From Flavobacterium sp. (GTDB lineage Bacteria; Bacteroidota; Bacteroidia; Flavobacteriales; Flavobacteriaceae), in contig JAGORP010000001.1 in assembly GCA_018062725.1 (NCBI GenBank), positions 1 through 64,000 of the forward strand: DNA of 64,000 bases. The letters run 5' to 3'. The position numbers were made by a program, and so were the translations under genes. The notes beneath the pieces were generated by a model. The model was not told the origin of the DNA and did not search any database. It saw only the letters and a list, made by a program, of their open reading frames with translations. Shown piece by piece: positions 8,959 to 46,378 of the stretch. How positions within the stretch are numbered: the first letter of the stretch is position 1; each line of letters starts with the position of its first letter.

Positions 8959-9071
8959 GTTGGAAATAACCGAAAAATAAAATTCGAAGTTATTAATTTC
9001 TATTTTAAAGATTTTTTGTAACTTCATCGTCTTTTAAAACACAGATTTTAGGACGCATTATTTTGAACTTT

Positions 9072-34695: not shown

Positions 34696-35676
34696 TTACA
34701 TCACCATCAAATTGCAACCACGAATATCCGAATTATCGAAACGACCTAAAACCTCGAAGGCATTATTGCCTACAATTTTTCCTAAATCCTGAGTGGCAAT
34801 AAAAGAGCAAGAATTGATATTGGCCAAATCAATGATGTTAATTCCACCTGTTTTGCCGTCGGTAATATAAGTTAAGGCATCTTCTGTGTCTCTAATTAAA
34901 ATTTGCATCCAATTGGGGCATTCAAATACGCCGTCGCCTAAAGAATAGGCTTGCGAAAGTAATTCGGTCATACCGTATTCGGAGTGGATTTTAGAAACAC
35001 CAAACCCATCACAGAGTAGTTTGTGTAATTCTTCTCGAATAATTTCTTTACGTCGACCTTTCATGCCTCCAGTTTCCATAATGATAGTATTCTTCAAATT
35101 GAATTGGTGTTTTTCAATCAAATCCAATAACGCATAGGTCACGCCAATTAAAATCACATTTTGTCCATCAGTATCTAATCGAATAAGTTTTTCAATTAAA
35201 GCATCATAATCGTTGAGGTAAAAACCACTTTCTGGATTATTGGAAAGTTGAATTAAATCGTCAACCATATGAATCAAGGAAGAGCCTTCTCTTTCCAAAT
35301 ACGAGGGAAGCAAAGCCAAAACAACATAATCCTCGATATTGCCATAAAATTGTCTAAAAGCCAATCGATAGCTTTCTTCATAAAATGCTAAATCCGTCAC
35401 ATGATGTTTGCTGGTGCTCATTCCTGTGGTACCACTACTGGTGAATGTAGCTTGAATAGGTTCGGCTGAACTGATTACTTTGTGACTTTTAAAAAACTGA
35501 ATGGGTAAAAAGGGAATGTCTTCTATTCGTTTGACATTGGATTTGTCTTTTTTAAGCAACCGACAAAATTCTTGGTATACCAAGTTGTTGTCATATTGAA
35601 ATCGGAAAACCTTTAAGGTGGTTTTTTCGAATTCTTTTTTGGAGCCAATGTGAAATATGTCGGAAGTTAAAAGCAT
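34696..35676 (-). CDS. LuxE/PaaK-like acyl-adenylating protein
   Basis: 326 residues. The segment TFTSSGTTGMSTSKH is the ATP/AMP-binding signature of the ANL and LuxE families; IMETGGMKGRRKEI and HSEYGMTELLSQAY follow in the expected order. LuxE-type proteins activate fatty acids as acyl-AMP and transfer them to a protein or thiol. In Flavobacteriaceae such proteins are often labelled acyltransferase; the acceptor is unknown. Stands alone. Confidence 0.85.
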   Translation of the reverse strand: MLLTSDIFHIGSKKEFEKTTLKVFRFQYDNNLVYQEFCRLLKKDKSNVKRIEDIPFLPIQFFKSHKVISSAEPIQATFTSSGTTGMSTSKHHVTDLAFYEESYRLAFRQFYGNIEDYVVLALLPSYLEREGSSLIHMVDDLIQLSNNPESGFYLNDYDALIEKLIRLDTDGQNVILIGVTYALLDLIEKHQFNLKNTIIMETGGMKGRRKEIIREELHKLLCDGFGVSKIHSEYGMTELLSQAYSLGDGVFECPNWMQILIRDTEDALTYITDGKTGGINIIDLANINSCSFIATQDLGKIVGNNAFEVLGRFDNSDIRGCNLMVM

Positions 35677-37239: not shown

Positions 37240-37578
37240 CTACTTTACAATCAATTTTCTAGTAGCGCGTTGGTCTCCTTCTTTTATTTTTATGATGTAA
37301 ACACCTGGGTTTAATGCGGTAATGTTTAATTCTTTGGTAGACAAAGTAGTTTGCATTACGCGTTTTCCCAATACATCGTATATTTCAACATCTTTTGGGG
37401 CTGATGATTTGGAGCTAATGTAAATCTTCCCATTCGCCACAGGATTAGGATATACATTTAAATTTTCAAAGGGTTGTTCTTGTTTAGAATTCAATGCGCC
37501 ATCCTTACTCTCCTGAGCCTGAGTACTCAAGGAAAATAAAATAAAAAGGAATGTGCTATAAAAGTAATTTTTCTTCAT
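37240..37578 (-). CDS. Minimal T9SS type A sorting-domain protein
   Basis: 112 residues: signal peptide (STQA-Q), a 20-residue linker, and a complete T9SS type A sorting domain (about 40-112; LNVYPNPVANGKIYISS to TRKLIVK). There is no cargo domain. It could be a remnant of a larger secreted protein or a small protein secreted in its own right. No frameshift remnant is evident upstream. Confidence 0.85.
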   Translation of the reverse strand: MKKNYFYSTFLFILFSLSTQAQESKDGALNSKQEQPFENLNVYPNPVANGKIYISSKSSAPKDVEIYDVLGKRVMQTTLSTKELNITALNPGVYIIKIKEGDQRATRKLIVK

Positions 37579-37684: not shown

Positions 37685-38902
37685 CTACAAATTACTTAAT
37701 AAATTTACTCCATTTACTGTTGTCCATGTTCCACCAGTTAATGATGCTCCAGTACTACTTCCAGATGTTGTCCAGTTTGTTGTTGGGTTAAAACTAGAAG
37801 CTTGTAACGTAAAAGTTATGGCTCCTGAGATGAAAGTATTGTCAGTATTCGAGATTTTTACATTGTTCATTTTAATTTTACCTCCTGCAATTTGGTTATT
37901 GTACGTGTTTAAATCTAACACTTGTACTGCACCGCCATTTCTAGAAGAAGGTGATGTTTGGTTTTTATAGCCATCGATTACAATGTTGCTAAAATCACCA
38001 TTTCCTTCTTTTTTGAACTGGAAAGCATCCAATTGTATTTCACTTTGTGCCTCAGTAACGGTCCCAGCTGCTCTTTTTAATGTAATGTTAGTAACTACTG
38101 GCCAGAAAGCATTGTTTACTCCTTTTGCTTCTGCTTCAATTCCATAGTTTGCAGTACCTACTTGGTAAGCGTACCAGTTGGTGTTTAATTGACCTCTCCA
38201 TCCGTCTTGCCAGTCGAAAGCATCGTCTTTGTTTCCGTAAGAAATTAGGTTTTTACCACTAACCGTTCCTCCGTAAAATTCGAAGCCATCATCATTACCC
38301 ATATACGAAACTAGGTTTTCTAAAATGGTTCCTGATCCTACTGAATAGAATGAAAAACCATTGTGTTCTTTATTATTAGTAGTAATTACTTGTCCAGCAT
38401 ATTCTACACGAACATATTTTAAAGTACCACCATTATGTCCTGGGTTAGATCCACCATAAACAAGTGATAAACCATCTTCTGAAGTAGATGTTTGAGGTGC
38501 TGGGTTTACTGCAGAATTCACAATTGGGGCATCACCATACATGATGATACCAGCCCAAGAACCAGCAGTTTTAGATTTTTCAGTAAATACAATTGGAGCA
38601 TCGGCAGTTCCAACAGCAATTAATTTACCACCATTTAAAACGATTAATCCATTCTCTCCAGTCGAATTGTCACAAGTAATAGTTGATCCTGCTTCAAAAG
38701 TAACAGTTACTCCGTTTTGAATTTTAACCATTCCTTTTAAAGTGTAGTTTCCGTATGCAAATGTTTTATTTGCAGTAAAATCACCCGAAATTTCTCCAGA
38801 AGCGGGTACTTTAATTGTTGGGATTGATGTTTCTTCGTCATCGCTTGAGCATCCAGTGAATATTGATGCTAAAATTGCTAAACCTAAAGCAAATTTTTTC
38901 AT
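37685..38902 (-). CDS. Outer-membrane lipoprotein with right-handed beta-helix-like repeats, partner of the TonB receptor
   Basis: 405 residues from the ATG at 38902; lipobox FTGC (Cys18 or so) followed by SSDDEE, a typical surface-exposure tail. The body has repeated strands such as GMVKIQNGVTVTFEAGSTI, GGKLIAVGTADAPIVFT, LKYVRVEYAGQ, NLVSYMGNDDGFEFYGG, suggesting a parallel beta-helix. No catalytic motif recognised. It lies directly downstream of a TonB-dependent receptor on the same strand, but has its own -7 box and terminator; both genes share 11-bp phased GTTA arrays upstream. Probably a substrate-binding or processing partner of that receptor. Confidence 0.8.
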   Translation of the reverse strand: MKKFALGLAILASIFTGCSSDDEETSIPTIKVPASGEISGDFTANKTFAYGNYTLKGMVKIQNGVTVTFEAGSTITCDNSTGENGLIVLNGGKLIAVGTADAPIVFTEKSKTAGSWAGIIMYGDAPIVNSAVNPAPQTSTSEDGLSLVYGGSNPGHNGGTLKYVRVEYAGQVITTNNKEHNGFSFYSVGSGTILENLVSYMGNDDGFEFYGGTVSGKNLISYGNKDDAFDWQDGWRGQLNTNWYAYQVGTANYGIEAEAKGVNNAFWPVVTNITLKRAAGTVTEAQSEIQLDAFQFKKEGNGDFSNIVIDGYKNQTSPSSRNGGAVQVLDLNTYNNQIAGGKIKMNNVKISNTDNTFISGAITFTLQASSFNPTTNWTTSGSSTGASLTGGTWTTVNGVNLLSNL

Positions 38903-38929
38903 AGTGTTGTTGTTTTTATTTTTGATACA

Positions 38930-38937
38930 CAAAACTA
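38930..38937 (-). promoter_or_regulatory. -7 element of the lipoprotein gene
   Basis: Minus strand TAGTTTTG, perfect TAnnTTTG, 27 bp before the ATG. No TTG -33 element; that position is taken by the first GTTA unit at 38959, 22 bp away. Confidence 0.65.
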
Positions 38938-38958: not shown

Positions 38959-39024
38959 GTTATCTAAAAATTATATAAACGTTATCATAATCCTCAAAAA
39001 AAGTAAATTTAATGTTAATAAAAA
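38959..39024. promoter_or_regulatory. Phased 11-bp repeat array upstream of the lipoprotein gene (candidate response-regulator sites)
   Basis: Units begin at 38959 (GTTA), 38970 (ATTA), 38981 (GTTA), 39003 (GTAA) and 39014 (GTTA), all in 11-bp phase; the 38992 slot does not match. The block at 39003-39017 is identical to 41928-41942 except for one base. The last unit runs into the receptor gene's terminator. Confidence 0.5.
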
Positions 39025-39070: not shown

Positions 39071-41887
39071 TTAGAAAGTATAGGCTAAGTTGAATGAAAA
39101 ACCAACTCCTTTTTTATAGTCTTTTATGGTTAAATCACTTTCGTTAATTTTTACACGACTTTGATCTCCCATTTCAATTTTGTATTTAGGGTTTAGGATA
39201 TTATCTACAGAGAATTTCACGTCCCATTTTTCTCCTAATTTATTGCCCCAAACAAAGTCTAATTTATCAAATGGCATTTCGTAGTAGTGGTCTAATTTGT
39301 TAGTTCCTACGGCATAGATTCTTTTGCTGTATCGGTTGTAGACGAATGTCATCGTATTTTTCCAGTTTTTACTAAATTCTGATTCGTATTTTAAATCAGA
39401 ATTGATAATCCAAGACGATGCACCTTGTAGCTTTCTTGTTGGATTGGCATCAGCTGCAATGGTTTCTTGTGTTGTTTTATTGTCTTTCGTTTTGTAGATT
39501 TCTACTTTAGAATCCAAATAAGAGACATTGGTTCCTATAGAGAAATTTTTAAGTACGTTTGAAATTTTATCCAATTGGAAAATGGCTTCTAATTCAGCTC
39601 CATAAAGCGTTGCCTTTTTAGAGTTGTCATAAGTAATAATTTGACCACCACTTCCAGCAGATGGTGTAAATAATCGTTCAATTGGATTTTGGATTATTTT
39701 AGAAAAAGCCGTTACCGATAATAACTCTTTGTTGGTTGGAAATAATTCATATTTTAAATCCACATTATAATTATCACTGTTTTTAACTTTTATGTTTCCT
39801 AGTTCTAACGTTCCGTCAGGATTTACGAATTCCGATGGAAGTGCTTCCATAGTCACCGGTCTTGTAATGGTTTTAGAGGCTGCTAAACGGATATTTGAAT
39901 TTTCAGTTAATTTATACTTTCCATTAACAGAAGGTAAAAAGTCAAGTTTTTCAGTCGTAACAACCGTGTAGGGGTCATCAAAACTTCCAGTTGGTCGGTA
40001 TTTAATTTCTTTGGTGGTTTGCTCGGCTCTTACTCCAGCGTTTACGTCTACTTTATCGCCAAATTTTAAGGCTAGGTCAAGATATCCAGCGTTTACAAAT
40101 TCAAAAAGTTTCGATTTGTAACTTGAAGTGGAGCCATCTTTATAAGTAACATTACCACTTTGTATTTCTGATGCTAATTGTGAATCGGGAGTATTAGTGT
40201 TAAAAACACCATCAGAAGCAGCTGCACCACTAATAGGTTGTGAGATTACAAATCTAAATTTAGAATTCATTTTGTTGATATAACCGTTGTATCCAATAGT
40301 TAATTTGTTTGATTCTTCAATTTCTTTTTTGCCGAAATTCCAGCTGTATTCTCCTAAACCAGAAATGTGATATTTTCCGTCATAATCATAATATTGTCTA
40401 GAAATACTGTTTCCACCATAACTAATAGCCGTATGCTGATCATCGATTTTAATTCCTTTAAACGATTTTCTATCGGGTAATTCCATATTGGTTTTGGTAT
40501 AGGAAACACCTGCTTTTACATTATGTCTTTCGTTGCTAGTCAGTTTGTATTTAGCAAAAAGTTGTGTATTTAAGTACTTGGTTTGTTGTAATTCGTTTAA
40601 TCGAATAAATGTATTTTTCTGTGTCGAATTTCCATTGGTAAAACCCAACTGATCTTGAATCGTGTTTTCGGTCGAATTTAAAAAGAACGTATTTGACGTT
40701 ACATTTAAACGTTTCGATTTGAAATTCAAGGCTCCTAAAAGTGAAGAATTCGTAGTGTATTTGTACTTGGTCGTAACTAAGTTATTGTCATAATTTCCAA
40801 GGTTACTTGGGTCAAAAAAACGATCAACCCCTTTTCTCACTTGGTATTTGTTGTCAAAATTAGCCGATAGTAAATATTGAAAACTGTTTTGTTTTTCGCC
40901 TATATTAAATTTTTGAGTGTGAGTAACTCCGAAATTTGTATTCAAAGGCGATTTATCTTCTTCTACATCAAATCCAGAACCAAATCCGTTTATAGCTTCC
41001 TCTTTTGTGAAAATATGATTCGATGGGATAGACTTTCCAATTACTTTAGGAATATCTCTTTCATTTCCTGAAAATCCGAAGAAATCACTAGTAGAAGAAG
41101 CGTCTTTAGAACGTAAAAAACTACTCAAATTATTACCTGTAGTATAACCGGCTCCAAAATTAACTTTCGTTTGACTTTTTCCTGAATTTGCCGTGACAAT
41201 GTTAAAGGTGCCACCTGCAAAATCTCCATAAATATTGGTGTTAAAAGTTTTATAAGTTTCGATAATACTTACAATATCGGTTGGGAAAATATCTAATGGA
41301 AGGATTTTCTTGAACGGATTATTTGAAGGAACGGCCAAATCATTTATTAATAAATTATTATATCGATCTTCCAATCCACGTACAAACAAACCACGAGATT
41401 CCACTTTAGAAATCCCTGTAATCTTGGTTAAACCTTCTTCTACATCGCTTACGCCTTTGCGTGACATTTCTTGTGCACCAATACTTTGTTTGATTTCGAC
41501 AGCTTTCTTTTGTTCTAATAATAAAGCGGTTTCTTTTTCTTTACTGGCAGTTGCTTTTACCACTACATCTTGTAATGATACACTTCCAGAGCCAAGCGTT
41601 TGATTAATTGTTTTGGTTTCGCCTTCAGCAATGGTAAGAGTTAGTTCTTTCGATTCGTACCCTAAAAAGCTAAACACTAAAGTATGGGTTCCGGCTGTAG
41701 TTTCAATGGCATATTTTCCTTCAATATCGGTAGTTGCGCCATTTGTAGTACCTTTGACAACAATGTTTGCAAAAGCCAAAGGTTCGTTGTTTAAATCTTT
41801 GTCTGTAATGACTCCCGAAATAGTTGCTTTTTGCCCGAAAGTACAAAGTGACAATAAAAGGAATACAATAGATAAATTAAGTTTCAT
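39071..41887 (-). CDS. TonB-dependent outer-membrane receptor with carboxypeptidase-regulatory-like domain
   Basis: 938 residues. Signal peptide (SLCTFG-Q), carboxypeptidase-D regulatory-like domain (about 20-105; ISGVITDKDLNNEPLAFANIVVKGT), plug domain (about 115-240; EGLTKITGISKVESRGLFVRGLEDRYNNLLIND), then a large beta-barrel ending in aromatic FSFNLAYTF as outer-membrane proteins do. No SusD-like partner is next to it; instead a lipoprotein gene follows. It imports an unknown ligand using TonB-ExbBD energy. Divergent from a PhoB-like regulator and preceded by six in-phase GTTA-type sites, so its ligand may be phosphate-related; that is inference. Confidence 0.93.
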   Translation of the reverse strand: MKLNLSIVFLLLSLCTFGQKATISGVITDKDLNNEPLAFANIVVKGTTNGATTDIEGKYAIETTAGTHTLVFSFLGYESKELTLTIAEGETKTINQTLGSGSVSLQDVVVKATASKEKETALLLEQKKAVEIKQSIGAQEMSRKGVSDVEEGLTKITGISKVESRGLFVRGLEDRYNNLLINDLAVPSNNPFKKILPLDIFPTDIVSIIETYKTFNTNIYGDFAGGTFNIVTANSGKSQTKVNFGAGYTTGNNLSSFLRSKDASSTSDFFGFSGNERDIPKVIGKSIPSNHIFTKEEAINGFGSGFDVEEDKSPLNTNFGVTHTQKFNIGEKQNSFQYLLSANFDNKYQVRKGVDRFFDPSNLGNYDNNLVTTKYKYTTNSSLLGALNFKSKRLNVTSNTFFLNSTENTIQDQLGFTNGNSTQKNTFIRLNELQQTKYLNTQLFAKYKLTSNERHNVKAGVSYTKTNMELPDRKSFKGIKIDDQHTAISYGGNSISRQYYDYDGKYHISGLGEYSWNFGKKEIEESNKLTIGYNGYINKMNSKFRFVISQPISGAAASDGVFNTNTPDSQLASEIQSGNVTYKDGSTSSYKSKLFEFVNAGYLDLALKFGDKVDVNAGVRAEQTTKEIKYRPTGSFDDPYTVVTTEKLDFLPSVNGKYKLTENSNIRLAASKTITRPVTMEALPSEFVNPDGTLELGNIKVKNSDNYNVDLKYELFPTNKELLSVTAFSKIIQNPIERLFTPSAGSGGQIITYDNSKKATLYGAELEAIFQLDKISNVLKNFSIGTNVSYLDSKVEIYKTKDNKTTQETIAADANPTRKLQGASSWIINSDLKYESEFSKNWKNTMTFVYNRYSKRIYAVGTNKLDHYYEMPFDKLDFVWGNKLGEKWDVKFSVDNILNPKYKIEMGDQSRVKINESDLTIKDYKKGVGFSFNLAYTF

Positions 41888-41909: not shown

Positions 41910-41917
41910 CAAAGGAA
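41910..41917 (-). promoter_or_regulatory. Candidate -7 element of the TonB receptor gene
   Basis: Minus strand TTCCTTTG, one mismatch to TAnnTTTG, 22 bp from the GTTA unit at 41939, the same spacing as for the lipoprotein gene. It predicts a short leader. Confidence 0.5.
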
Positions 41918-41927
41918 TGTGCTTCAT

Positions 41928-41993
41928 GTAAATTTGATGTTAGTTCAAGGTTACATTTAAGTTTTGCAGATGTTACCAAAAAGTTAACAGGTT
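41928..41993. promoter_or_regulatory. Six-unit 11-bp GTTA array between the TonB receptor and the response regulator
   Basis: Half-sites start at 41928 (GTAA), 41939 (GTTA), 41950 (GTTA), 41961 (GTTT), 41972 (GTTA) and 41983 (GTTA), each exactly 11 bp apart. The strongest pair, 41971-41988, has the form TGTTACC-AAAA-AGTTAAC: two 7-bp direct half-sites with a 4-bp A-rich spacer, the architecture of PhoB boxes. Confidence 0.6.
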
Positions 41994-42154
41994 AAATTTT
42001 TGTAATGCGGTTATTTTTCTTTCAAATATTGGTTACTTTTACGCCAAACAACAACTATTTTTTATGAATTCGCCACTACCAATAAGTTTAAGTAATTCGA
42101 AACCAAATATATAGGCGAAACCATATTTGACCGCTATAAATAAATTTTACAAAT

Positions 42155-42838
42155 ATGAAAAAGAAAGATATCAAGATACTTTTAGTAGATGATGAAGTCG
42201 ATATTTTAGAAATTGTAGGCTACAATCTAACACAAGAGGGATATCAAATTTTTACGGCTGAAAACGGTAAAAAAGCAGTCGAAAAAGCCAAAAAACATGT
42301 GCCGCATCTTATTATTATGGATGTAATGATGCCAGAGATGGATGGTATGGAAGCTTGTGAAATTATCAGAAGAACGCCCGAACTTTCCAATACAATTATC
42401 ACTTTTCTAACCGCCAGAAATGAAGATTACTCGCAAGTAGCTGGTTTTGATGCAGGCGCCGATGATTATATCACAAAACCTATAAAACCGAAAGTATTGG
42501 TCAGTAAAGTGAAAGCGTTATTGCGTCGCTTTAAAGAAGAGGAAGCGGCTTCGGATAGTTTAAATGTTGGAGGAATTGAAATTAATCGCGAAGAATATAA
42601 AATTGTCAAAGAAGGACAAGAAATCGTATTGCCTAGAAAAGAATTCGAATTGTTTTATTTACTAGCTTCCAAGCCCGGAAAAGTATTTAAACGCGAAGAA
42701 ATCCTAGACAAAGTTTGGGGCAACGAAGTGGTAGTAGGTGGCAGGACTATTGATGTTCATATCCGGAAATTACGTGAAAAAATTGGAGATGATTTTTTTA
42801 AAACCATTAAAGGTGTTGGCTATAAATTTGAAATTTAA
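42155..42838 (+). CDS. PhoB/OmpR-family response regulator
   Basis: 227 residues. Receiver domain with acidic pocket Asp12-Asp13, phospho-acceptor Asp56 (IIMDVMMPEMDG) and the Lys of DYITKPIKP; then a winged-helix C-terminal domain (about 130-227; PRKEFELFYLLASKPGKVFKREEILDKVWG, GRTIDVHIRKLREKIG). It binds DNA as tandem dimers at 11-bp direct repeats, matching the array just upstream. Bacteroidetes homologues are commonly labelled PhoB/PhoP. The kinase gene starts at the base after its stop. Confidence 0.93.
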   Translation: MKKKDIKILLVDDEVDILEIVGYNLTQEGYQIFTAENGKKAVEKAKKHVPHLIIMDVMMPEMDGMEACEIIRRTPELSNTIITFLTARNEDYSQVAGFDAGADDYITKPIKPKVLVSKVKALLRRFKEEEAASDSLNVGGIEINREEYKIVKEGQEIVLPRKEFELFYLLASKPGKVFKREEILDKVWGNEVVVGGRTIDVHIRKLREKIGDDFFKTIKGVGYKFEI

Positions 42839-43879
42839 ATGAGTGTTAATTTAAAAAAGACGTATAAGTTTGCTGTTAAATCTTCAGCATATGTAACCAT
42901 ATTTTCAACAGGGTTAGTAGCAATACTAACCTCTTTGTTTTATACATTGTCTTTTCCTTTTCTGCTTATTTTTGCTGTTTCCGTATTGCTTTTTTCCTTT
43001 TTTATGCTGCAGTATCGCGTAGAACGTTTTATTTACCGTCGCGTTAAAAAAATCTATGATGAAATTTCTTTTTTAGATACGGTCGATTTTAAAAATCAAG
43101 CCATCACGACCGACATGGCTACGTTGACTAAACAGGTTAAAAAATTCGCCACCGATAAAAAATTAGAAATTGAAATGCTAAAAGATCGGGAAGAATACCG
43201 TCGTGAATTTTTAGGGAATGTTTCTCATGAACTCAAAACACCTTTGTTTACTGTTCAAGGGTATATTTCAACACTATTGGATGGCGCCCATAAAGACAAA
43301 ACTCTTCGAAAAAAATATTTAGAACGTGCCGAAAAAGGAGTCGAACGCTTGGCCTATATCATTGAAGATCTAGACATGATTGGAAAACTCGAAATGGGAG
43401 ACGAAAGTCTCGAAGTCAAAGAATTTGATATTGTCGAACTTTCTCAGGGTATTATGGATTTGCTGGAAATGAAAGCCAATAAAAAAGAAATTTCTTTGCA
43501 TTTTGACGAAAAATATTACCGTCCGATAATGGTGATTGCTGATTATGAAAAAATCCAACAAGTCATGATGAATTTGGTCATGAATTCTATCAAATATGGT
43601 AAGGTAGGTGGCTCTACCGAAATTAGTATTGAAGATTTAACCAACCATAAAGTTATCGTTCGTGTGATTGATAACGGTGAAGGAATCGAAAAACATAACA
43701 TACCGCGTTTGTTTGAACGATTCTTTCGTGTTGATAAAAGTGGTGCGCGTTCGGAAGGAGGTTCTGGCTTAGGACTCTCTATTGTGAAACACATTATCGA
43801 AGCCCATGACGAGAAAATTTACGTTGAAAGTACCTTTGGTAAAGGGTCTGAGTTTTCTTTTACACTCGAAAAAGCCTGA
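42839..43879 (+). CDS. Sensor histidine kinase without large sensor domain (PhoR-like)
   Basis: 346 residues. Two membrane helices (about 15-33 and 38-56) joined by only a few residues, so there is almost no periplasmic domain. Then a helical linker, the H-box FLGNVSHELKTPLF (His130), N-box MMNLVMNSIKYGK, and ATP-binding GSGLGLSIVKHI. This layout suggests sensing within the membrane or through a partner protein. It phosphorylates the response regulator encoded immediately upstream. No PAS domain is seen, unlike E. coli PhoR. Confidence 0.93.
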   Translation: MSVNLKKTYKFAVKSSAYVTIFSTGLVAILTSLFYTLSFPFLLIFAVSVLLFSFFMLQYRVERFIYRRVKKIYDEISFLDTVDFKNQAITTDMATLTKQVKKFATDKKLEIEMLKDREEYRREFLGNVSHELKTPLFTVQGYISTLLDGAHKDKTLRKKYLERAEKGVERLAYIIEDLDMIGKLEMGDESLEVKEFDIVELSQGIMDLLEMKANKKEISLHFDEKYYRPIMVIADYEKIQQVMMNLVMNSIKYGKVGGSTEISIEDLTNHKVIVRVIDNGEGIEKHNIPRLFERFFRVDKSGARSEGGSGLGLSIVKHIIEAHDEKIYVESTFGKGSEFSFTLEKA

Positions 43880-43905
43880 TTTCCAATGTTAAGTTTTCAT
43901 CCAAT

Positions 43906-43938
43906 GTTACCAAATTGTTAAGCAAAAGTTTTTTTATT
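43906..43938. promoter_or_regulatory. Three-unit 11-bp GTTA array upstream of the MORN-repeat gene
   Basis: GTTA at 43906 and 43917 and GTTT at 43928, exact 11-bp phase. The first pair (TGTTACC-AAAT-TGTTAAG) closely matches the pair at 41971-41988. It lies just upstream of the -7 box at 43952. Confidence 0.5.
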
Positions 43939-43951
43939 GTAAATTATTGAT

Positions 43952-43959
43952 TACATTTG
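43952..43959 (+). promoter_or_regulatory. -7 element of the MORN-repeat gene
   Basis: TACATTTG, perfect TAnnTTTG, 32 bp before the ATG; no TTG -33, its place is occupied by the GTTT unit at 43928. Confidence 0.65.
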
Positions 43960-43991: not shown

Positions 43992-44342
43992 ATGAAAAAC
44001 TTTTTAATAGCATGTGCTTTTTTAATGACAGGAGTTGTTGTAGCACAAGGAGTGGAACCTACTTTTGAAGTGCAAGGAAATCTTGTAAAAGCAACATATT
44101 ACCATGATAATGGGAAAATTAAGCAAGAAGGTTTTTATAAAGATGGTAAAGTACATGGGAAATGGATTTCCTATGCCGAAAATGGTAAAAAACTTTCTTT
44201 AGGAGAATATAAAAACGGACAAAAATCAGGAAAATGGTTTTTTTGGGATGCCACAACCCTAAGCGAAGTGGATTATTCGGATAGCCGAGTAGCTACTGTT
44301 AGCAAATGGGAAAAAGGAATGGTAGCCTACAATAAAAAATAA
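43992..44342 (+). CDS. Exported YwqK/MORN-repeat protein
   Basis: 116 residues with a signal peptide (TGVVVAQG). The mature part has MORN-like repeats: ATYYHDNGKIKQEGFYKDGKVHGKW, YAENGKKLSLGEYKNGQKSGKW. Such proteins are often labelled YwqK-family antitoxins, but a signal peptide and no toxin neighbour argue against a toxin-antitoxin role here. The upstream phased GTTA sites suggest control by the adjacent response regulator. Function unknown. Confidence 0.8.
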   Translation: MKNFLIACAFLMTGVVVAQGVEPTFEVQGNLVKATYYHDNGKIKQEGFYKDGKVHGKWISYAENGKKLSLGEYKNGQKSGKWFFWDATTLSEVDYSDSRVATVSKWEKGMVAYNKK

Positions 44343-45460: not shown

Positions 45461-46300
45461 TTAGTTGTCAATAATACTAATAAATTGATGTAATAATTGT
45501 GTTTCGTACTCGAAGTTTTCTTCTTCTGTTTCAAAAGTAGGGCTTTCTTTTTTATGTTCATACAGTCGCCATTTCTTCTTGTTGTATTCTAAAGCAGTCA
45601 GATTTTCAATCCAATCTCCTGAATTTAAATACGTAGTTTTTCCGTAGTCGTTTTCAATGTGCTCAATTTTTGGCTCATGAATATGACCACAAATAACATA
45701 ATCGTATTTTTTTTCGATGGCCAATTCGATACATACTTTTTCAAAATTAGAAATAAACTTCACCGCCGATTTTACACTCGATTTAATTTTCTTCGAAAGC
45801 GAATACGGTTCTTTGTTGCATTTTACCAATACCCAATTGACCATTCGATTGAATACAATTAGAAAATCATAACCCCAACCTCCTAACTTGGCTAACCATT
45901 TGGCATGAGTAATGGAAGAATCGAAAACATCACCGTGAAAAATCCATGCTTTTTTGCCATCCAAATCTAAAGTTAGCTTATTGATTAAACTAAAATTGCC
46001 CAAATGAATGTCAGTAAATTTCCGAAGTAATTCGTCGTGGTTACCTGTCAAATAATACACTTTAGTTCCTTTAGAACTCATCGAGATGATTTTTTTGAGT
46101 ACCTTTAAATGACTCGAAGGGAAATAGGATTTCCTAAATTGCCAAATATCTATGATGTCTCCATTTAGAATTAGAATTTTAGGCTTTATCGAAGACAAAT
46201 ACCCTAATACTTCTTTGGCATGACAACCATAGGTTCCAAGATGAACATCGGAAATGACGGCAACTTCAATTTTTCTTTTTTTCAAATCTTTTTCTTTCAA
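45461..46300 (-). CDS. LpxH-like metallophosphoesterase (UDP-2,3-diacylglucosamine diphosphatase family)
   Basis: 279 residues. Calcineurin-like metal motifs in order: SDVHLG, LNGDIID, LTGNHDELL, FHGDVFD and ICGHIHEP. Resembles LpxH, which cleaves UDP-diacylglucosamine to lipid X in lipid A synthesis, but is longer by about 40 residues, with an insert around 165-205. Coupled with a glycosyltransferase gene. Whether it is the lipid A enzyme or a paralogue cannot be settled here. Confidence 0.85.
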   Translation of the reverse strand: MKEKDLKKRKIEVAVISDVHLGTYGCHAKEVLGYLSSIKPKILILNGDIIDIWQFRKSYFPSSHLKVLKKIISMSSKGTKVYYLTGNHDELLRKFTDIHLGNFSLINKLTLDLDGKKAWIFHGDVFDSSITHAKWLAKLGGWGYDFLIVFNRMVNWVLVKCNKEPYSLSKKIKSSVKSAVKFISNFEKVCIELAIEKKYDYVICGHIHEPKIEHIENDYGKTTYLNSGDWIENLTALEYNKKKWRLYEHKKESPTFETEEENFEYETQLLHQFISIIDN

Positions 46301-46378
46301 AGTAAGTGTACCAATGTTTTAGGAATGTTAGGCTAGCGTTATAAAATATTTATGATTTTTAATAAGAATTTAATTGAG

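Follow-up and report, generated by a model that had tools for sequence, protein, structure and literature searches.

A putative PHO-box-like operator common to a TonB-dependent receptor and a PhoB-like regulator in Flavobacteriaceae

Results and Discussion

Genes at the locus

The window (i.e. the whole stretch of 64,000 nucleotides of Flavobacterium sp. DNA that was analysed) carries a TonB-dependent receptor gene on the reverse strand (39071..41887; domains CarbopepD_reg_2, Plug and OMP_b-brl_3) and, divergent from it, a gene for a PhoB-like OmpR-family response regulator on the forward strand (42155..42838; receiver and Trans_reg_C domains). A PhoR-like histidine kinase gene (42839..43879, forward strand; HisKA and HATPase_c) starts directly after the regulator; a receiver, a C-terminal DNA-binding domain and an adjoining HisKA/HATPase kinase gene were the features by which a PhoB-like regulator was recognised. 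The two best NCBIfam models for the regulator were TIGR02154 (PhoB) and NF053854, and since it scored below the curated cut-off of each (212.8 vs 296.2 bits and 208.2 vs 270 bits) though both models ranked best, it is called PhoB-like only. The kinase likewise fell below the cut-offs of its best models, PnpS (236.1 vs 400 bits) and phoR_proteo (225.2 vs 334.2 bits).

The surrounding cluster includes a lipoprotein named FII for its place in the cluster (37685..38932, reverse strand), whose listed TTG start sits inside a -7 box, an ATG at 38902 being the likelier start. On the far side of the kinase lie a MORN-repeat protein gene (43992..44342, forward strand) and a reverse-strand pair, namely a PlcP-like metallophosphoesterase (45461..46300), named by likeness to published PlcP-glycosyltransferase pairs and probably starting at the TTG at 46285, followed by a glycosyltransferase (PF04101; 44391..45458). 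The labels FII, FIII-like, Flip2 and Flip3 were coined in the present analysis, as was pstS-like for PBP_like_2 proteins. By gene kind and Pfam content, not by sequence, the cluster resembles the ‘PhoBR operon’ (PUSIV) of F. johnsoniae, and the Pfam set of the receptor is that listed for Fjoh_0545, which is induced on phosphate (Pi) depletion (PMC8115612).

Two further reading frames in this part of the window were noted in passing. That at 34696-35676 resembles by eye the LuxE-type gene (by Pfam) of one relative, L062, and it is this L062 gene whose BLAST cluster has at least 55 members in these neighbourhoods. That at 37240-37578 encodes a small protein sorted by the type IX secretion system (T9SS), and among the matches listed 19/66 promoters of its relatives carry a matrix pair (defined below); such promoters may share the site of phoB, as T9SS genes may adjoin phoB divergently where the receptor is missing.

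The array at 41928..42005

Between the receptor start (41887) and the regulator start (42155), as the initial annotation had placed it, lies a series of half-sites with a step of exactly 11 bp: GTAA at 41928, GTTA at 41939 and 41950, GTTT at 41961, and GTTA at 41972 and 41983. Re-reading gave the same six units, period and positions as first described, and the pair singled out as the best, 41971-41988, does consist of 7-bp halves around a 4-bp spacer (TGTTACC-AAAA-AGTTAAC). The array continues beyond these six units with a GTTA at 41991, 8 bp on from 41983, and a GTAA at 42002, 19 bp on from 41983 and hence one more 11-bp step away; the two make up an additional pair. The putative shared operator therefore spans 41928..42005 on the forward strand, with eight half-sites in a single orientation, one 8-bp step and two weak units (GTAA at 41928 and GTTT at 41961); two or more direct repeats with 11-nt spacing are a mark of PHO boxes.

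Half-sites were scored with G = 1 and T, T and A = 2 each, giving a six-unit maximum of 42, and the array reaches 38. Of 2000 dinucleotide shuffles of the 267 bp between the two genes, not one attained 38, whether the period was fixed at 11 or allowed to range from 7 to 16; with four units only, 0/2000 shuffles equalled the array at period 11 and 9/2000 at any period. The array is also the best six-unit series of the window (both strands, periods 9-13), the runners-up scoring 34 at 43895/43906 (period 11, a related array) and at 9033 (period 12).

The Bacteroidetes -7 box has the consensus TAnnTTTG, and the -33 element is expected ∼21 nt before it. The candidate -7 box of the receptor promoter (41910..41917, reverse strand) reads TTCCTTTG and is imperfect, as had been proposed, and the imperfection is conserved (see below). 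The start of half-site 41939 is 29 nt away from the C of CAAAGGAA; seen from the gene, this leaves 21 nt between the end of the unit and the box, which fits the earlier placement of the array at the -33 position. For phoBR, a candidate -7-like box (TACTTTTA, 42034..42041, forward strand) lies 32 nt after half-site 42002; this is a weaker assignment, as the leader holds four TAnnTTT matches.

Conservation upstream of phoB

Relatives of the locus were found at at least 80 loci, nearly all labelled Flavobacteriaceae among the matches listed, with genera including Flavobacterium, Maribacter, Zobellia, Flagellimonas, Kordia, Cellulophaga, Myroides and Salegentibacter. Two loci (L032 and L063) were dropped, their upstream sequence being too short. 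Regions with a divergent receptor numbered 38 (37 loci plus the window); they were assigned partly by eye, and two of them, L047 and L065, were counted as receptor regions by the array itself and are not independent.

The initial annotation had named, as one outcome that would speak against it, a GTTA phase that is not conserved between orthologous regions. Instead, the phase was kept: among the matches listed, exact TTA stands at all four strong half-sites in 34/38 receptor regions, a figure that leans towards the model since each region was placed so as to match these four half-sites best. The box-anchored and GTTA-pair counts that follow are free of this lean. The distance from CAAA to the unit is 29 nt in 33/38 receptor regions (among the matches listed).

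When rows were anchored on the GCAAA box of the receptor only (n = 32, automatic anchoring having failed for 6/38 regions), TTA stood at offsets 31 (30 rows), 42 (30), 64 (29), 75 (28), 83 (25) and 94 (20), and no other offset had more than 15 of 32. These offsets correspond to window half-sites 41939, 41950, 41972, 41983, 41991 and 42002, respectively. The weak units are partly conserved in the same 32 rows (offset 19: G 22, T 27, last A 27; offset 52: G 20, T 31), the 8-bp step is kept in 25/32, and column 7 of the box is A, i.e. TTnnTTTG instead of TAnnTTTG, in 29/32. One mis-anchored region (L018) was kept in the 32 rows and excluded from a set of 31, which also served to train the matrix described below and in which the modal base stood at 91% in the core and 52% in the spacer.

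A search of the 330 bp upstream of phoB (forward strand) found exact GTTA pairs at 11 bp in 34/38 regions with the receptor and in 25/41 without a recognised receptor (among the matches listed), and no exact pairs at 10, 12 or 13 bp in any of the 79 regions listed; pairs at 7, 8, 9, 14, 15 or 16 bp occurred in at most 5/38 and 3/41 regions, respectively. Loci that lack the receptor mostly retain one pair, and a few (e.g. L014, L029 and L052) retain the four-unit phoB half. The 22-bp gap from 41950 to 41972 is kept, while the matched phoB start lies anywhere between 58 and 199 bp beyond the last unit. In the window, the stretch after the array (42042-42154) contributes to a distance of 153 bp from the last unit to phoB, 86 bp longer than the 67 bp of the closest listed relative (L001).

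A period of 11 bp is near one turn of the helix and the DNA here is rich in A and T; phased A/T runs could in principle bend the promoter, with GTTA as a by-product of AT-rich phased DNA. We regard this as extremely improbable, given that the GTTA letters themselves are kept, with the contrast between core and spacer noted above, that the units share one direction, that the 8-bp step is conserved and that shuffles fail to reproduce the array. Chance, low complexity and DNA bending were rejected on the shuffles, the box-anchored phase, the core/spacer contrast and the prevalence of the 11-bp spacing among exact GTTA pairs.

Beyond the family, across the phylum, only 1/30 upstream regions of genes matching NF053854 (a Bacteroides PhoB model) scored at least 12 at 11 bp with the matrix described below, compared with three at 10 bp and two at 13 bp; these matches are of mixed orthology. 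For three of the more distant Bacteroidota matches of this model (L216, L224 and L228), scores of 12-14 were seen upstream of the response regulator with units 10 bp apart, the first GTTACC-like and the second TTTTAAC-like; the site there may be inverted or have another spacing.

Arrays before other genes

A matrix was built solely from the receptor-phoB region (93 unit pairs from 31 rows) and used at a threshold of 12. The best 11-bp sites of the window were 41972 (19.4), 43906 (18.7), 38970 (13.4), 41991 (12.3) and 41939 (11.8), of which 41972, 41991 and 41939 belong to the training region and 43906 and 38970 lie outside it; the best score at control spacings was 14.5. Three forward-strand half-sites precede FII (38959..38984: GTTA 38959, ATTA 38970, GTTA 38981), the score of 13.4 falling at 38970 and the first half-site lying 29 nt from the FII box CAAAACTA (38930-38937). 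Before the MORN gene, five forward-strand half-sites (43906..43953: 43906, 43917, GTTT 43928, GTAA 43939, ATTA 43950) include the second-best site of the window and run into the box TACATTTG (43952-43959). The series before plcP (46316..46352, forward strand: GTTT 46316, GTTA 46327, GTTA 46338, TTTA 46349), with a box CAAAGTAA (46298-46305) 29 nt from 46327, scores 10.7, under the threshold. A distance of 29 nt between a GTTA unit and the C of the CAAA box is thus common to three promoters of the window, those of the receptor, FII and plcP.

To count matches away from the locus, we scored 534 promoters whose genes do not resemble any of ten reference proteins from the window; this count replaces an earlier one in which neighbours that are phosphate genes had been treated as negatives. 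The threshold was reached at 11 bp by 24/534 promoters, compared with 1, 1, 3 and 3 at 9, 10, 12 and 13 bp, respectively. By Pfam or BLAST cluster, 17 of the 24 belong to porin O/P, pstS-like, Pit or PhoU-like genes. A Pfam scan of 20 of them gave 6 Porin_O_P, 3 PBP_like_2, 3 PHO4 and 1 PhoU_div, one more without a family sharing a BLAST cluster with a Porin_O_P protein; the 6 others were two Poly_export proteins, a chromate transporter, a TonB-type receptor, a LuxE and an exonuclease, and the remaining 4 of the 24 fall in the main porin BLAST cluster. Within gene groups, the pair precedes 9/9 porin-cluster genes (one also at 9 bp), 3/5 pstS-like genes and 3/4 PHO4 genes. The pair thus recurs before phosphate-starvation genes specifically at 11 bp, as PHO boxes do. 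The link to phosphate, at first a guess from the type of regulator, is now supported because other phosphate genes carry the same pair.

Among other classes of promoter in relatives, scores of at least 12 were obtained for 6/6 phytase receptor, 5/5 MORN, 3/4 FIII-like, 17/29 FII and 4/44 glycosyltransferase promoters, and the MORN-repeat protein is on this basis a predicted regulon member. No pair at this threshold was found for two other lipoprotein groups, Flip2 (0/6) and Flip3 (0/2), or for the PhoR kinase (0/25) or TrmB (0/23). The signal at plcP is weak, with 5/19 promoters of relatives in one set and 0/5 in another (19 of 24 plcP regions were matrix-scored), and in the 24 regions TAA pairs were as frequent at 20 bp as at 11 bp (30 each). 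It is also weak at PhoX, where 1/8 strong loci has a pair, several starts being uncertain and 9 weaker loci having been left out. Scores above 13 at control spacings included FIII-like L208 and L210 at 9 bp, plcP L114 (14.1 at 9 bp) and PhoX L088 (17.2 at 8 bp), and plcP L120 scored 13.0 at spacing 12. The LpxH paralogues, used as a negative set, gave few pairs at 7 loci. Counts for the receptor and PhoB promoter classes overlap the training region, and small T9SS proteins and L071 may share the phoB upstream region, so that these classes are not proof.

These matches bear on whether the array could instead serve a different member of the OmpR family, one with joint control of cell-envelope genes, its nearness to phoB being incidental. 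Units are alike within the family (ArcA too uses 11-bp direct repeats; PMC3798270), the PhoP motif of Riemerella was called ArcA-like (PMC9603813), and 6 of the 20 Pfam-scanned matches precede genes of other kinds. Against this, the 11-bp GTTA pair remains before phoB in 25/41 listed regions without the receptor, and the 17 of 24 matches outside the region are phosphate genes. We therefore judge control by another regulator to be quite unlikely.

Promoter geometry

From 747 promoters, 59 were picked as ‘Pho-like’ by matrix score (at least 12 and above control spacings) without regard to the box. T[AT]nnTTTG is present in 46/59, and unit-to-box distances peak at 40 (12), 29 (10), 51 (7) and 18 (7) nt. 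Of 139 such distances, 43 fall in class 7 mod 11 (18, 29, 40, 51, 62), the other classes holding 6-15, and box-to-unit distances thus stay in helical phase; the remaining 688 promoters lean to class 7 too (89/636). The best site is directed away from the gene in 49/59 promoters. At the position in the sequence expected of a PHO box, this geometry fits an activator that would replace the upstream promoter element.

An alternative is that these are real PhoB operators acting chiefly in a repressor or dual role, with the receptor repressed when phosphate is plentiful. In another genus, pstS is up in a Riemerella phoPR deletion (PMC5399024), as a repressor would predict. However, the fixed 29-nt placement at -33 and the conserved poor -7 box fit activation, and the receptor, FII and PhoB of F. 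johnsoniae rise on Pi depletion (log2 8.0, 9.9 and 3.1, respectively; PMC8115612). Mainly repressive action consequently seems unlikely, if somewhat less so than control by a different regulator.

Relation to known systems

PHO boxes are built of 11-nt direct units whose core differs between species (PMC4415409). The array resembles those of E. coli, Bacillus and Streptomyces in having at least two direct 11-nt units with seven conserved positions and four less conserved; known boxes precede phosphate-starvation genes and are bound by an OmpR/PhoB-family regulator (PMC4415409), and the array is placed likewise with a putative binder. It differs in its core, about TGTTAAC rather than CTGTCAT (E. 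coli) or GTTCACC (Streptomyces). The array lacks the E. coli core CTGTCAT, which we did not count as defining across phyla because the core varies by species according to the same review. It also differs in its position at -33 before a Bacteroidetes TAnnTTTG-type box, in the eight units with an 8-bp step common to two divergent promoters, and in the prevailing direction of the best site away from the gene. PHO boxes as a kind are thus already known, and most unusual here is the two-promoter layout with its 8-bp step.

Riemerella is another member of the Flavobacteriales. The DAP-seq motif of R. anatipestifer PhoP was reported as ArcA-like with the core TTTAACA, near the reverse complement of the TGTTAA of the array; PhoP occupies a 35-nt stretch (-156 to -121) ahead of the operon that encodes it, and its 583 peaks were discussed with redox and virulence, with no unit spacing given in the available text (PMC9603813). 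PhoP is a response regulator like the neighbour of the array, compared here by published description, not by sequence. The ArcA box of E. coli has direct repeats 11 bp centre to centre, mostly three to five units of unequal strength; it belongs to a different regulator that answers a different signal, in the context of anaerobic carbon oxidation and mostly as a repressor (PMC3798270).

The suggestion that the array may be undescribed holds in part: a related motif has been published for Riemerella PhoP (PMC9603813), and no flavobacterial PHO-box consensus was found in the literature searched, which was mostly without subscription papers. Putative Pho boxes have been marked in plcP clusters of marine bacteria including Flavobacteria, with no consensus given in the available text of PMC4796936. 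PhoB of B. fragilis binds the pstC promoter; ‘consensus’ and ‘binding motif’ are absent from the text of that report (PMC3547664). The main text of the F. johnsoniae paper, as far as available, names no promoter, motif or binding site and proposes no operator (PMC8115612).

Proposed role of the array

We conclude that the array is very probably the operator of the adjacent PhoB-like regulator, a flavobacterial PHO box common to the receptor and phoBR promoters, built of repeats that approximate TGTTAAC and recur every 11 bp. The analysis shows where the sites lie, the phase that they keep across relatives, their constant spacing from the receptor box and their reappearance ahead of phosphate genes; the identity of the binding protein, its dependence on phosphorylation, activation and the pairing of dimers are inferred. 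When phosphate runs short, phosphorylation by the PhoR-like kinase would lead the regulator to bind in tandem, as dimers arranged head to tail. A dimer on 41939+41950, at -33 of a promoter with a poor box, could recruit polymerase and turn on the receptor, with FII driven from its own array. The phoBR promoter would be controlled from 41972+41983 and 41991+42002, each bound by a dimer (autoregulation). The weak units 41928 and 41961 might be filled by cooperativity when the level of regulator is high.

Several findings count against a PhoB operator. In F. johnsoniae depleted of Pi, the porin OprP (Fjoh_0542; log2 -1.3, FDR 0.245) showed no induction, though 9/9 porin promoters of relatives carry the pair; PhoR (0.76) did not change significantly either (PMC8115612). 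The rise of pstS in the Riemerella phoPR deletion was 8-fold (PMC5399024). To these are added the missed PhoB and PhoR cut-offs, the Flip2, Flip3, PhoX, plcP and PhoR promoters that lack the pair, the scores at control spacings, the 1/30 beyond the family and two genome-wide patterns without enrichment over backward controls (see below).

More tentatively, the 78-bp element might be one cooperative bidirectional switch, with PhoB units end to end from the receptor -33 and the conserved 8-bp step turning the last dimer to another face of the DNA for the phoBR promoter. If so, receptor expression would be coupled to autoamplification of the regulator.

For Flavobacteriaceae, this yields an explicit PHO-box model in which units resembling TGTTAAC repeat every 11 bp and, at the receptor, lie 29 nt from the -7 box. 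With such a model, the phosphate regulon could be read from sequence in soil and water bacteria of the F. johnsoniae type. Pi-induced receptors and lipoproteins of unassigned control could be placed by it, and it predicts new regulon members, e.g. the MORN-repeat gene.

Genome-wide patterns

As a genome-wide finder, a CAAAG-anchored pattern fell under its backward control in 7/8 genomes, the count in the eighth being inflated by a tandem repeat. This 16-bp repeat, CAAAGTGACAGAGTTA, lies in genome G005, contig 1, at 2727041-2727280. A looser box-plus-pair pattern was under its control in 4/4 genomes (among the matches listed). Five places of one genome drawn from the box-plus-pair matches (L275 left out) comprised three with no evident phosphate link, one TonB-type receptor and one PhoU_div-PHO4 operon, the last with a pair and a box 28 nt apart.
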